Source: a candidate division BRC1 bacterium HGW-BRC1-1
Lineage (GTDB): Bacteria > Sumerlaeota > Sumerlaeia > Sumerlaeales > Sumerlaeaceae
Assembly: GCA_002842095.1 (NCBI GenBank)
Contig: PHCB01000023.1
Span: 1-32,299 of the forward strand
Length of the DNA stretch: 32,299 nucleotides
Direction of reading: 5' to 3'
Positions 14,679 through 24,212 of this stretch are shown here, one piece after another. How positions within the stretch are numbered: the stretch's first letter is position 1; every line of letters starts with the position of its first letter. The notes below the pieces were generated by a model. That model made no database searches. It was not told the origin of the DNA and saw only the letters and a list, made by a program, of their open reading frames with translations. The translations under genes and the position numbers were made by a program.

Positions 14679-14737
14679 AAAGCTTTGACGCAAAGAAAAA
14701 CCAAAGCTTTGACACAAAGACACGAAGACACAAAGAG
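14679..14737 (+). repeat. Dispersed GACGCAAAGA repeat, family A (two direct copies)
   Basis: AAAGCTTTGACGCAAAGA (14679-14696) is repeated with one change as AAAGCTTTGACACAAAGA (14703-14720) and continues CACGAAGACACAAAGAG. It begins 5 nt after the stop codon of the HEAT-like protein gene, in sense orientation. The same core follows the Dus gene (17374 on), the ExeA-type ATPase gene (19953) and the Gfo/Idh/MocA gene (24210, minus). Confidence 0.85.
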
Positions 14738-14786
14738 AAGCAGAAGAAGGTTTTAGGATTGAAGCTCTGAGGTTTGATTGAGAATC

Positions 14787-14816
14787 TTGGGCCCAGAGGC
14801 TTATTGCCTGTATAAT
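14787..14816 (+). promoter_or_regulatory. Possible sigma-70 promoter for the YchF-type gene
   Basis: A perfect TATAAT (14811-14816) has TTGGGC 18 bp upstream (14787-14792). It would give a 5' leader of about 230 nt for the gene starting at 15054, containing the family D repeat. The surroundings are AT-rich, so a chance match is quite possible. Confidence 0.3.
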
Positions 14817-14827
14817 ATAATAATTTT

Positions 14828-14855
14828 ATTCGTGCCCATCCGCGTTCATTAGTGG
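14828..14855 (+). repeat. Dispersed ATTCGTG...CATTAGTG repeat, family D
   Basis: ATTCGTGCCCATCCGCGTTC followed by ATTAGTGG. The inverted copy at 24111-24137 shares both ends (ATTCGTG and CGT-CATTAGTG). It lies about 90 nt beyond the family A repeats downstream of the HEAT-like protein gene, in the same orientation as them. Confidence 0.65.
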
Positions 14856-15053
14856 TCTGAGATTTTTCGAAAGGTCATGCCCATGCGCATAACCCGCATT
14901 CTCGTTCCAATCGGCGGTGTCATAGTCGCCGCCATCGTCGAGAAGCGCTCCACTTGAAATGGGGTAGTCGGGAACTGCTCTTTGCGCCTGAGCTTTCCCC
15001 GCTCCGCATTTGCCTTTTGACACTGCCTCACCCGTCGCCCTTTCTTTACGACC

Positions 15054-16151
15054 ATGGAACTCGCACTCATCGGACTTCAGAAGTCCGGCAAAACCACTGT
15101 TTTTAACGCCCTGACGGGCGGACACGCTGAGACCAGCGCATTCTCTGGCGGCAAGGTTGAACCCAACATGGCCGTGGTGAAGGTGCCCGACGCCCGCGTT
15201 GACAAGCTTTCAGAGATGTACGAGCCGAAGAAGATCACCCACGCCACGGTGAAATATGTGGATGTGGCAGGCATGGGCCAGGAGGGGGGCGACGCGACAA
15301 AGGGCGTGCCCGAGGCGCTGCTGCAGTATGTTTCCAAGGCCGAGGCCCTGCTGGCCGTGGTTCGCGGGTTCGATGATCCGCTGCATGGCGCACCCAGGCC
15401 CGCGTCCGACGTGGAAGCGATCCATCTGGAGCTGATTTTCAGCGACATGGCGAAGGTTGAAAACCGGATCATGCGCATCGAAAAGCAGATCACGCGCATT
15501 GCCGGCCGCGAAAAAGACGCCATGGCCATGGAACTGGCCGCGCTGCAACGGATACTCCCGGCGCTGGAGTTGAACCAGCCGGTGCGATCGGTGGAGATGA
15601 CCCCCGAGGAGGAGAAAATCCTGCGCGGGTTCCAGTTTCTGAGCGCGAAACCGATCATGTATCTGCTGAACACCGACGAAACGCGCATGGCACCGGGAGC
15701 CGAGGGTGGCACAATCCCCACGGTGCCAGGCATAACGGACGCGCCGCAAACCGCCACGGCATCGCTGGCGGGCGAGATTGAAATGGAAATCGCGCAACTG
15801 ACCGGCGACGACCGCGCAGCGTTCCTCACGGATTACAACATCACCGAGCCAGCGGCGGAGCGCATCATCGCGCTCAGCTACGAGTTGCAGGGGCTGATGT
15901 CGTTCCTGACGAGCGGCCCCGACGAAGTACGCGCGTGGACCGTGCACCGCGGCGCCACGGCCCCGCAGGCCGCGGGCGTGATCCACAGCGATTTCGAGCG
16001 CGGGTTCATTCGCGCCGAAGTGGTCTCCTACGACGAGCTGGTGGCCCACGGCAGTACCGCCAACGCCAAGAAGGCGGGCAAGGTGCGGCTGGAGGGAAAG
16101 GCCTACATCGTGCAGGATGGCGACGTGATCAACTTCCTCTTCAGCGTGTAG
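15054..16151 (+). CDS. YchF/OLA1-family GTP/ATP-binding protein
   Basis: A 365-residue Obg-superfamily NTPase, the typical YchF length. The P-loop is GLQKSGKTTVFNALTG at residues 7-22, the DxxG box is VDVAGMGQ, and the usual NKxD position reads LLNTDE, as in YchF proteins that have lost guanine specificity. A helical hairpin follows G-domain motif 3. The C-terminal ~85 residues (RAWTVHRGATAPQAAGVIHSD) are the TGS/DUF933 domain. YchF proteins bind ribosomes and affect stress responses. The P-loop differs from the common GLPNVGKST form, so this may be a side branch of the family; I leave the gene symbol empty for that reason. The ATG has no Shine-Dalgarno. It ends 65 nt before the Dus gene, with a hairpin between. 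Confidence 0.9.
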   Translation: MELALIGLQKSGKTTVFNALTGGHAETSAFSGGKVEPNMAVVKVPDARVDKLSEMYEPKKITHATVKYVDVAGMGQEGGDATKGVPEALLQYVSKAEALLAVVRGFDDPLHGAPRPASDVEAIHLELIFSDMAKVENRIMRIEKQITRIAGREKDAMAMELAALQRILPALELNQPVRSVEMTPEEEKILRGFQFLSAKPIMYLLNTDETRMAPGAEGGTIPTVPGITDAPQTATASLAGEIEMEIAQLTGDDRAAFLTDYNITEPAAERIIALSYELQGLMSFLTSGPDEVRAWTVHRGATAPQAAGVIHSDFERGFIRAEVVSYDELVAHGSTANAKKAGKVRLEGKAYIVQDGDVINFLFSV

Positions 16152-16167
16152 CGCGAAGCGGTTCGAC

Positions 16168-21948: not shown

Positions 21949-21983
21949 GTCCACCTCCACTCAAGGGAGAAAATTACCGGCCC

Positions 21984-24116
21984 ATGGACCAGGACGATCT
22001 GTTCGGAAACAACGACGACACCGCGCCCAAACCCAAGGCAAAGGCGAAGGAAAAACGCCCTGATGAGTCGGTGGCGCCGTCTCCCGCCCAGCGCGTAGAA
22101 ACCCTGCGCAAAGAGCTCGAACGCCACAACCGGCTCTATTACACCGACGCGCGTCCAGAAATATCTGACCGCGAATACGACCTTCTGATGGCCGAACTGG
22201 CCGCGCTGGAAGCGAAGCATCCGGAGTTGGCCACCGCCGACTCCCCCACGCGCCGCGTGAACGAGGCGGCCCCCGCCGCCGAGGCCGTCGCACCGGGCAA
22301 GCAGGTGGTCCACACGGTGCCCATGCTTTCGCTGGCAAACTCTTACGATCCGGGCGAGTTGCGCGAATTCGACGCCCGCGTGAAGCGTCTGCTGGGCGGC
22401 CCCGCCGAAGTGGAATACGTGGTGGAGTTGAAGATCGACGGGCTGGCCGTGAGCCTCATGTACATCGACGGGCGCCTGGCCTACGGCGCAACCCGCGGCG
22501 ACGGACGACGTGGCGAGGTGATCACCCACAACCTGGCGCGGGTGAGCGACGTGATGACCGAACTGCCGCAATCGATGAAACGCACCGGCCACCGGCTGGA
22601 ACTGCGCGGCGAGGTGTTTATGGAAATCGCCGAGTTCGAACGCATCAATGCGCGTATCGAGGCCGCAGGCGAGCAGCCCTTCGCCAACCCGCGCAACCTG
22701 GCCGCCGGCACACTGAAGCAGGTAGAAAAACCCGTCACCGACCCCGACGACGAACGCCGTTTGCGCATGTTCCACTATGCGCTGGGCGAAACCGATTTCG
22801 ATCTGCCCCCCACACAGGGCGGGTTTCTTGACTGGCTGGACCAGCACGGTTTCTCGGTGAACCCGCAGCGCTGTCTCTGTCCGGACATCGAGGCGGTCAT
22901 TGCATACAGCGAAGAATGGGAGACCCGCCGCCACGAGTTGCCTTACGGCACCGACGGCCTGGTGGTGAAAATCAACGACCGCAACCTGTGGTCGCTTCTG
23001 GGCGCAACGGGCAAATCGCCGCGGTCGATGATCGCCTACAAATTCTCCGCCGAACAGGCCGAGACGCGTCTGGTCGACATCCGTTGCAGCGTGGGACGCA
23101 CCGGGGCCGTTACGCCGGTGGCGCAACTGGAACCGGTTTTCCTTTCGGGCAGCACCATCGAACGGGCATCGCTGCACAATTTCGACGAGGTGGAACGCCT
23201 CGATGTGCGCGTGGGGGACCGGGTCATCATCGAGAAAGCGGGCGAGGTGATTCCCAAGGTGATCCGCGTGGTGGACAGCGTGCGCACAGGCAGCGAGCAG
23301 GAGTGGGTGCCGCCCGGTGTGTGCCCGGAATGTGAATCGCCGCTGGTGCGTCTGGAGGAGGAAGTGGTGGTGCGGTGCGATAATCTCTCGTGCCCCGCCC
23401 AGGTGCGCGAAAGCCTGCTGCACTACGCCTCGCGGCACGCCATGGACATCAAGGGCCTCGGCGACAAACTCGTGGAAAAGCTGTTGGAAAAGGGCGCGGT
23501 GATGGACATCGCGGACCTGTACTCGCTGACTCCCGAGCATCTCGAAAACGTGGAACGCATGGCGGAGAAAAGTGCCGCGAACGTGGTGGGCGAAATTGAC
23601 GAAAGCCGCGACCGACCGCTGCACCATCTGCTGTTCGCGCTGGGAATCCGTCACGTGGGCGAAGGGGTGGCGCGTCTGCTGGCGGGCAGCTTCGAAACCC
23701 TGAACGACCTGATGGCGGCGCGCCCCGAGGCGCTGGCCGCCGTGGACGGCGTGGGCGACGTAATGGCCGAGAGTATCGTGAAGTTCTTCGAAACACCGCG
23801 CAATGCACAGTTAATCAGCCGTCTGCAAGAGGCCGGAGTGATGGGACCAAACCCGCTGTGGAGCGCGGGGAAAACCGCTGATGGTCCGCTGGCGGGAATG
23901 ACACTGGTGCTGACCGGAACGCTGCCCAACCTGAAACGCGAAGAAGCCGCCGCGAAGATCCTGAGCGCCGGCGGCAAGGTAAGCGGCAGCGTATCGAAGA
24001 AAACCGATTTCGTTGTGGCCGGAGAAGAAGCGGGCAGCAAACTCGATAAAGCCACGAAGCTGGGCGTGAAAGTGATCACCGAGGCGGAGCTTCTGGAGAT
24101 GCTTGGGGCCCACTAA
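21984..24116 (+). CDS. ligA: NAD-dependent DNA ligase LigA
   Basis: A complete 710-residue NAD+-dependent DNA ligase, which seals nicks during replication and repair. Domains in order: Ia NAD-binding ([19 protein letters not shown]), adenylation domain with the nucleophile lysine in [11 protein letters not shown] (K150), OB fold, zinc finger with C447-x2-C450-x14-C465-x4-C470, helix-hairpin-helix region ([17 protein letters not shown]), and C-terminal BRCT ([18 protein letters not shown]). About 45 Lys/Pro/Asp-rich residues precede domain Ia. The start is ATG 21984; a TTG at 21945 overlaps the glycosyltransferase stop but reads non-conserved sequence. It is 35 nt after the glycosyltransferase gene, so the two may be co-transcribed. 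Its stop codon falls inside a dispersed repeat. Confidence 0.97.
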
Positions 24117-24137
24117 TGGACGCTAACAAACACGAAT
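24111..24137 (-). repeat. Dispersed family D repeat overlapping the ligA stop codon
   Basis: On the minus strand it reads ATTCGTGTTTGTTAGCGTCC followed by ATTAGTG. It matches 14828-14855 at both ends. The plus-strand ligA stop codon TAA (24114-24116) and last codon CAC are part of the element. In the sense of the convergent Gfo/Idh/MocA gene it lies about 87 nt after that gene's stop. Confidence 0.65.
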
Positions 24138-24140
24138 ACC

Positions 24141-24160
24141 TAATTATTAATAAATAATTA
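24141..24160. terminator. AT-only palindrome between convergent genes
   Basis: TAATTATT-AATA-AATAATTA, a perfect 8-bp inverted repeat without any G or C, in a 43-nt AT-only stretch between ligA (plus) and the Gfo/Idh/MocA gene (minus). The stem is weak as RNA; the site may instead be a bidirectional transcription end or a protein-binding AT patch. Confidence 0.3.
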
Positions 24161-24180
24161 AAATAAATTTAAAGTTTATT

Positions 24181-24212
24181 CTTTGCGCCCTTTGCGACTT
24201 TGCGTCTAAGGT
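24181..24212 (-). repeat. Dispersed GACGCAAAG repeat, family A
   Basis: Read on the minus strand: CCTTAGACGCAAAGTCGC then AAAGGGCGCAAAG. It begins about 12 nt after the stop codon of the minus-strand Gfo/Idh/MocA gene, in its sense orientation, and nearly equals the copy at 19952. Confidence 0.85.

Follow-up and report, generated by a model that had tools for sequence, protein, structure and literature searches.

A dispersed intergenic repeat of a BRC1 bacterium is probably the arm of a small mobile unit encoding a GxxExxY protein

Repetitive extragenic palindromic (REP) sequences, REPINs and the REP-associated tyrosine transposases (RAYTs) form the closest known system to the repeats described here. 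In the portions of the literature available to us, that system comprises palindromes dispersed outside genes, as inverted pairs and as singles, together with a few owner-gene copies flanked by the same repeats, and repeat and protein co-vary (PMC3116915, PMC2817692, PMC8266576). A second precedent is provided by the heptamers of Xanthomonas (GGGAATC / GGGGA(T/C)T) and Nostoc, which lie on the coding strand up to 50 bp past a stop codon or on the non-coding strand up to 50 bp upstream, form convergent pairs close together and were studied as G-quadruplex repeats; in the accessible part of that account we found no owner gene named for them (PMC4692102). Here we analyse a 32,299-nt stretch of DNA (contig PHCB01000023.1, hereafter the window) from the candidate division BRC1 bacterium HGW-BRC1-1, which holds five matches to a GACGCAAAGACGCGAAGG-type tract, family A, where 0.07 are expected from shuffled sequences. 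We conclude that family A repeats are probably the arms of a small mobile unit that is REPIN/RAYT-like in organization and carries a different protein, GxxExxY, with gene-less palindromes and single arms as its debris.

Family A arms follow the consensus AAARCTTT-GACGCAAAGACGCRAAGRGCGCAAAG-AAAAGC and consist of a few tandem units of 8–9 nt without G-tracts. Across the source genome (3.77 Mb in 34 contigs) there are about 16 pairs of plus and minus A arms, and the only pair that encloses a recognisable gene encloses one for GxxExxY (C27:33596-34163). Arms of another family, D, enclose a second GxxExxY gene (C2:225432), and a third, apparently frameshifted (C19:47277), stands beside a D-type left arm. 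In a test for an inverted repeat scoring at least 17 between the two 300-nt flanks of a gene, inverted arms, built of 8–10-nt tandem units, flanked 36 of the 52 GxxExxY genes in the source genome and its relatives and 26/30 of those in another 18 genomes, many of which belong to other phyla; a few of these loci are orthologous or overlapping, so the counts are not fully independent. The same test returned 0/30 for ParE toxins, 1/30 for SSB and 21/600 for cross-paired flanks, and the positive control, RAYT genes with 350-nt flanks, gave 19/29 with repeats that resemble known GTAG-tagged REPs. GxxExxY units share with REPINs extragenic inverted pairs that flank an owner gene. A Y1/HUH transposase (PF01797) as the owner was rejected, the arms flanking PF13366 genes.

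Across phyla, arm type agrees with the phylogeny of the GxxExxY proteins. In a 68-protein tree, for which seven weak arms were assigned by eye, the CRCNRAG-unit arm type, which includes family A, requires 3 changes compared with 22.3 for shuffled labels, and none of 500 shuffles was as low. Both arm types coexist in the source genome, its A-type protein clustering with others of that type and its D-type protein with those of Chloroploca (Chloroflexi). PF13366 is present in all 14 genomes with at least 5 A hits, compared with 22 of the 47 remaining genomes. Searches with tblastn gave no match in phages and seven plasmid records, so the family is chiefly chromosomal.

The proteins of four loci (L239, L238, L259 and L266) score 118, 138, 144 and 143 bits, respectively, with the TIGR04256/PF13366 profile, for which the curated cut-off is 35. 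Invariant residues include E30, D70, E80-x-K82 and Q98xxxY102, which is the PD-(D/E)XK nuclease pattern with a QxxxY motif of RecB/Cas4 type. An AlphaFold2 model, with a predicted local distance difference test (pLDDT) score of 95.6, had a sole Foldseek match under an E value of 0.001, SSO0001 (4ic1), a Cas4 protein; archaeal Hjc resolvases stood lower in the VIA list, and a search of the PDB for sequence relatives of GxxExxY returned none. By its modelled fold and its catalytic D and E-x-K residues, GxxExxY is a predicted member of the PD-(D/E)XK superfamily and may be an active nuclease. It is like Cas4/RecB-type nucleases in predicted fold, QxxxY-type motif and best structural match, and unlike them in being a short stand-alone protein inside repeat arms. 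In the portions of the REP literature considered above, by contrast, the RAYT is a Y1/HUH transposase and the REP a single GTAG-tagged hairpin, rather than a predicted PD-(D/E)XK protein between arms of tandem 8–10-nt units.

The element was observed as arm–gene–arm units, gene-less palindromes, nested palindromes and single arms, alongside element-free sites and one case of a whole unit standing at two loci. First, two loci of one genome (L259 and L266 in G010) share a 468-nt arm–gene–arm unit that is 95.7% identical and set in unrelated flanks, the identity starting at one arm end and stopping at the other. The same unit at different loci is what a miniature inverted-repeat transposable element (MITE) or a DNA transposon displays. 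As with MITEs, short inverted-repeat elements that are not autonomous are related here to a copy that carries a gene; unlike MITEs, GxxExxY units show no target-site duplication and no known transposase family, and their arms are short tandem units.

Second, one Flavobacterium site holds, depending on the species, the gene with its arms, the same in inverted orientation, a gene-less palindrome, a single arm or nothing, and one of its gene-less palindromes carries a second palindrome nested within it. At L375 and L382 the GxxExxY unit is inverted relative to its flanks; Flavobacterium panici has it the opposite way round at that site. At a second Flavobacterium site, right past a stop codon, the palindromes differ between species, and an additional palindrome of about 65 nt is present in some species and absent in others. 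Third, Chloroploca asiatica lacks the left arm and gene start of the unit found in C. mongolica, within flanks that are 98.6–99.8% identical. Both A loci tested in these sister species are present in both and differ in the number of 8-nt units alone. Partner remnants beside single A arms were not above the null expectation.

A complete unit consists of a left arm, one GxxExxY gene of about 115–140 amino acids and an inverted right arm, and the best-defined example spans about 470 nt. The predicted nuclease would bind and cut the arms, or the cruciform formed by them, and thereby copy the unit; copies that lack the gene would be served in trans, which is the presumed role of RAYT towards REPINs. 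Stop-proximal sites would be those at which insertion is least harmful or those to which the nuclease is directed, and most copies would afterwards decay to one arm.

In the window, the copies are best explained as such gene-less debris, with one intact palindrome (17372-17467) and otherwise single arms:

9646-9676, plus strand: family B arm.
14679-14696, plus strand: family A truncated arm of one unit, 3′ of the HEAT gene.
14703-14742, plus strand: family A single arm of the GACACAAAG subfamily, without partner (pattern match, consensus).
14828-14857, minus strand: family D arm (CGCGGAT...CACGAAT), of polarity opposite to the preceding A arm.
17372-17405, plus strand: family A left arm of the complete gene-less palindrome, 24 nt past the Dus stop.
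17431-17467, minus strand: family A right arm (pattern match 17434-17459), antisense, upstream of the ParA/MinD-type gene.
19945-19985, plus strand: family A single arm (tract 19945-19979), 3′ of the AAA/ExeA-type ATPase gene.
20044-20076, minus strand: family B arm (ATGGACGATATGGACGAAATGGAC), of polarity opposite to the preceding A arm.
24118-24137, plus strand: AT-type (family D-like) arm GGACGCTAACAAACACGAAT, immediately past the ligA stop, its sequence read directly.
24179-24214, minus strand: family A single arm (tract 24181-24214), sense, past the stop of the minus-strand Gfo/Idh/MocA gene.
28011-28062, minus strand: family B arm.

A preliminary description of this DNA had placed family A tracts past the HEAT (14679-14742), Dus, AAA/ExeA-type ATPase and minus-strand Gfo/Idh genes, and they are present there as listed; the names that it gave to the adjoining genes were upheld by Pfam, which names HEAT, YchF, Dus, ParA/MinD-type, AAA, ligA and Gfo/Idh genes in the window. 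Its statement that the repeat always follows a stop codon in sense orientation fails on a fifth copy that it overlooked (17434-17459, minus strand). This copy stands upstream of the following gene, antisense to it, and pairs in inverted orientation with the Dus copy, the two forming a palindrome of 30 nt, 90% complementary, around a 22-nt loop. The second repeats that it reported after family A tracts do exist as B or D arms, but in the opposite orientation (D minus at 14828-14857, B minus at 20044-20076): the layout is a left arm followed by a foreign right arm. The one that it attributed to the Gfo gene (24118-24137, plus strand) belongs to the convergent ligA gene, because it begins right past the ligA stop. 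The order of stop codon, family A and then B or D had further been held to be unlike that of scattered selfish repeats; a stop-proximal and mostly sense bias is to be expected of palindromic mobile elements that settle beside genes. Elsewhere in the window, AATGGGAGGAATGGG tracts at 11947-11993 and 12031-12077 form an inverted pair, 77% complementary, of a further family with the same build.

Genome-wide, the underlying rule is one of polarity, in that the repeats point away from the gene at either border and into the intergenic region. A 17-nt pattern with up to 2 mismatches gave 60 forward and 68 reverse matches in the whole genome, and its reversed-pattern control 5 and 5. Placement statistics come from about 0.8 Mb read in stretches, with genes called by a simple custom script (83.6% coding). 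There, the core 13-mer is intergenic at 33/33 places, and 25 of the 52 intergenic A tracts are sense-oriented and no more than 35 nt from a stop codon (random placement, 6.4; maximum, 15 in 5000 trials); within 40 nt, 25 are sense and 4 antisense. The genome search proposed in the preliminary description thus bears out a stop-proximal sense bias, but for 19 of 51 intergenic copies the border behind them is a gene start, and no stop, and these copies are antisense to that gene. Copies upstream of genes and in both orientations had been named there as evidence that would count against the claim; they do occur, in part, and the bias holds nonetheless. It is one half of the inward-polarity rule: A tracts point inward from the nearer gene border by 45:7 (31:6 at 3′ ends and 14:1 at 5′ ends), and neighbouring A, B and D tracts, mixed-family pairs included, are ordered plus-then-minus 26 times and minus-then-plus once. 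Family B obeys the rule as well, with 22 sense copies no more than 40 nt from a stop codon (null, 11.1; maximum, 19). The placement rule of family A is like that of the Xanthomonas and Nostoc heptamers as the accessible part of their description gives it, and the units are unlike, 7 nt and G-rich there compared with 8–9 nt and no G-tracts here (PMC4692102). On one contig (C28, 5380 bases), seven A arms lie on a single strand at irregular spacing, which may be a tandem cluster or an assembly artefact.

Among the matches listed, the exact 17-mer occurs (raw matches) in bacteria of more than 10 phyla and in one Methanosarcinales metagenome-assembled genome, and the plus/minus layout is frequent among them. 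For 117 loci from many phyla, copies no more than 60 nt from a stop codon number 40 in sense orientation (null, 22; maximum, 35 of 2000) and 12 in antisense, distances being approximate because gene calling there relied on models pooled by G+C; at several of these loci a GxxExxY gene adjoins the repeat. CGCAAAG-type tracts are present in many phyla with no assigned origin found in the literature searched. A literature search on the repeat sequence found no relevant paper among the matches listed. GxxExxY is named in just two of the papers searched, in one of them in passing, and PF13366 in one, nor was any published tie of such repeats to GxxExxY or S23 proteins found; most subscription journals lay outside the search, so this silence is weak evidence of novelty.

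S23/four-helix-bundle genes (PF05635, L278-L307) define another class of repeats, distinguished by this protein, with inverted arms at 23/29 genes and units mostly of 7 nt. Such heptamer arms flank S23/four-helix genes in a sample that does not include Xanthomonas; a link to cyanobacterial STRR and to the Xanthomonas GGGAATC heptamers is possible. We put at about even the chances that these are phylum-spanning minimal transposable units, with one class in which a predicted PD-(D/E)XK (Cas4/RecB-like) protein acts on the cruciforms of inverted tandem-repeat arms and a sister class in which S23/four-helix-bundle proteins act on heptamer arms. The two classes would then explain many short tandem and palindromic repeats between bacterial genes that have lacked an explanation. 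The assignment of owners suggests that an arrangement of the REPIN/RAYT kind, with an owner protein and non-autonomous palindromes, arose three or more times from unrelated proteins (Y1 transposase, GxxExxY and S23). For family A itself, a named but uncharacterised nuclease-like family is the likely owner of a widespread unexplained repeat; the assignment predicts which genome holds which repeat, and mobility is directly testable.

Several points weigh against GxxExxY as the mobilising protein. Some GxxExxY genes have no detectable arms, and the shared tree of arms and genes may simply reflect joint travel. A search of 58 units gave no target-site duplication, the longest repeat averaging 3.59 against a null of 3.51, with boundaries uncertain by a few bases. 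S23 proteins, which are not known to be nucleases, occupy equivalent units with heptamer arms, a point in favour of a shared mechanism that depends on the host. The main live rival, which we nevertheless rate as unlikely, is that GxxExxY, whose binding and cutting of the arms is conjectural, could be the cargo of another mobilising factor, such as a RAYT/IS200-type transposase or replication slippage, with the nuclease serving another role, for example in control or defence. The missing target-site duplications, the S23 units, the gain and loss of 8-nt units between sister species and the RAYT gene of the source genome all suit this alternative. Against it stand the agreement of arm type with the protein tree across phyla and the presence of PF13366 in A-rich genomes. 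Within 1.5 kb of the source-genome RAYT that was tested there is no arm of family A, B or D, and this RAYT was rejected as the mobiliser.

The preliminary description read the repeats as 3′-untranslated-region (3′-UTR) elements that act on RNA 3′ ends or translation, as a terminator, stabilising stem or RNA–protein site, and are kept by selection; we regard this as improbable. It draws on the sense bias within 35 nt of stops, which recurs across phyla and is only half of the polarity rule, and on the fold of the complete palindrome (17371-17468; −55 kcal/mol, z −10.5 versus shuffles). In addition, at one Flavobacterium site 3/12 outer-arm pairs have changed on both sides with pairing kept; such joint change could be due to selection on RNA, but palindrome correction predicts it as well. 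Three single arms, without partners, show little or no gain in folding over shuffles (z −0.01, −1.5 and −2.3), in contrast to the complete palindrome, and a common RNA-hairpin role is therefore unlikely; a secondary role at 3′ ends may nonetheless exist. This poor folding, together with presence or absence of the repeat at the same site between species, weakens a 3′-UTR role, and many copies are antisense upstream of gene starts. Intrinsic terminators (GC stem plus T run) at the repeats were rejected: a scan with loops up to 8 nt found 12 terminator-like sites compared with 10.6 in shuffles, none of them at repeats. An Rfam scan of the window returned the tRNA at 11311-11382 alone, with no match to the repeats over the gathering score. 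A post-stop sense bias, readable as a regulatory 3′-UTR signal, can stem from mobile-element debris.

It is very improbable that the repeats are independent minisatellites, produced by slippage beside genes and converging by chance on similar sequence: their tandem units, differing in number by 8 nt between sister species, would fit, but the 17-mer recurs in many phyla, the flanking consensus AAARCTTT and AAAAGC is common to them, the inverted-pair order is 26:1 and a whole unit has been copied to a second locus.

Two other repeats were seen. Tandem tracts of TTGCACACCGG type (C5:98200-98450 and elsewhere) are a separate repeat for which no owner was found, one 13-mer of which has 37 copies in the approximately 0.8 Mb, all intergenic. 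At the start of the window, positions 1-1710 hold long direct repeats with 372-nt spacing, probably part of a repetitive coding sequence that continues past the window edge.

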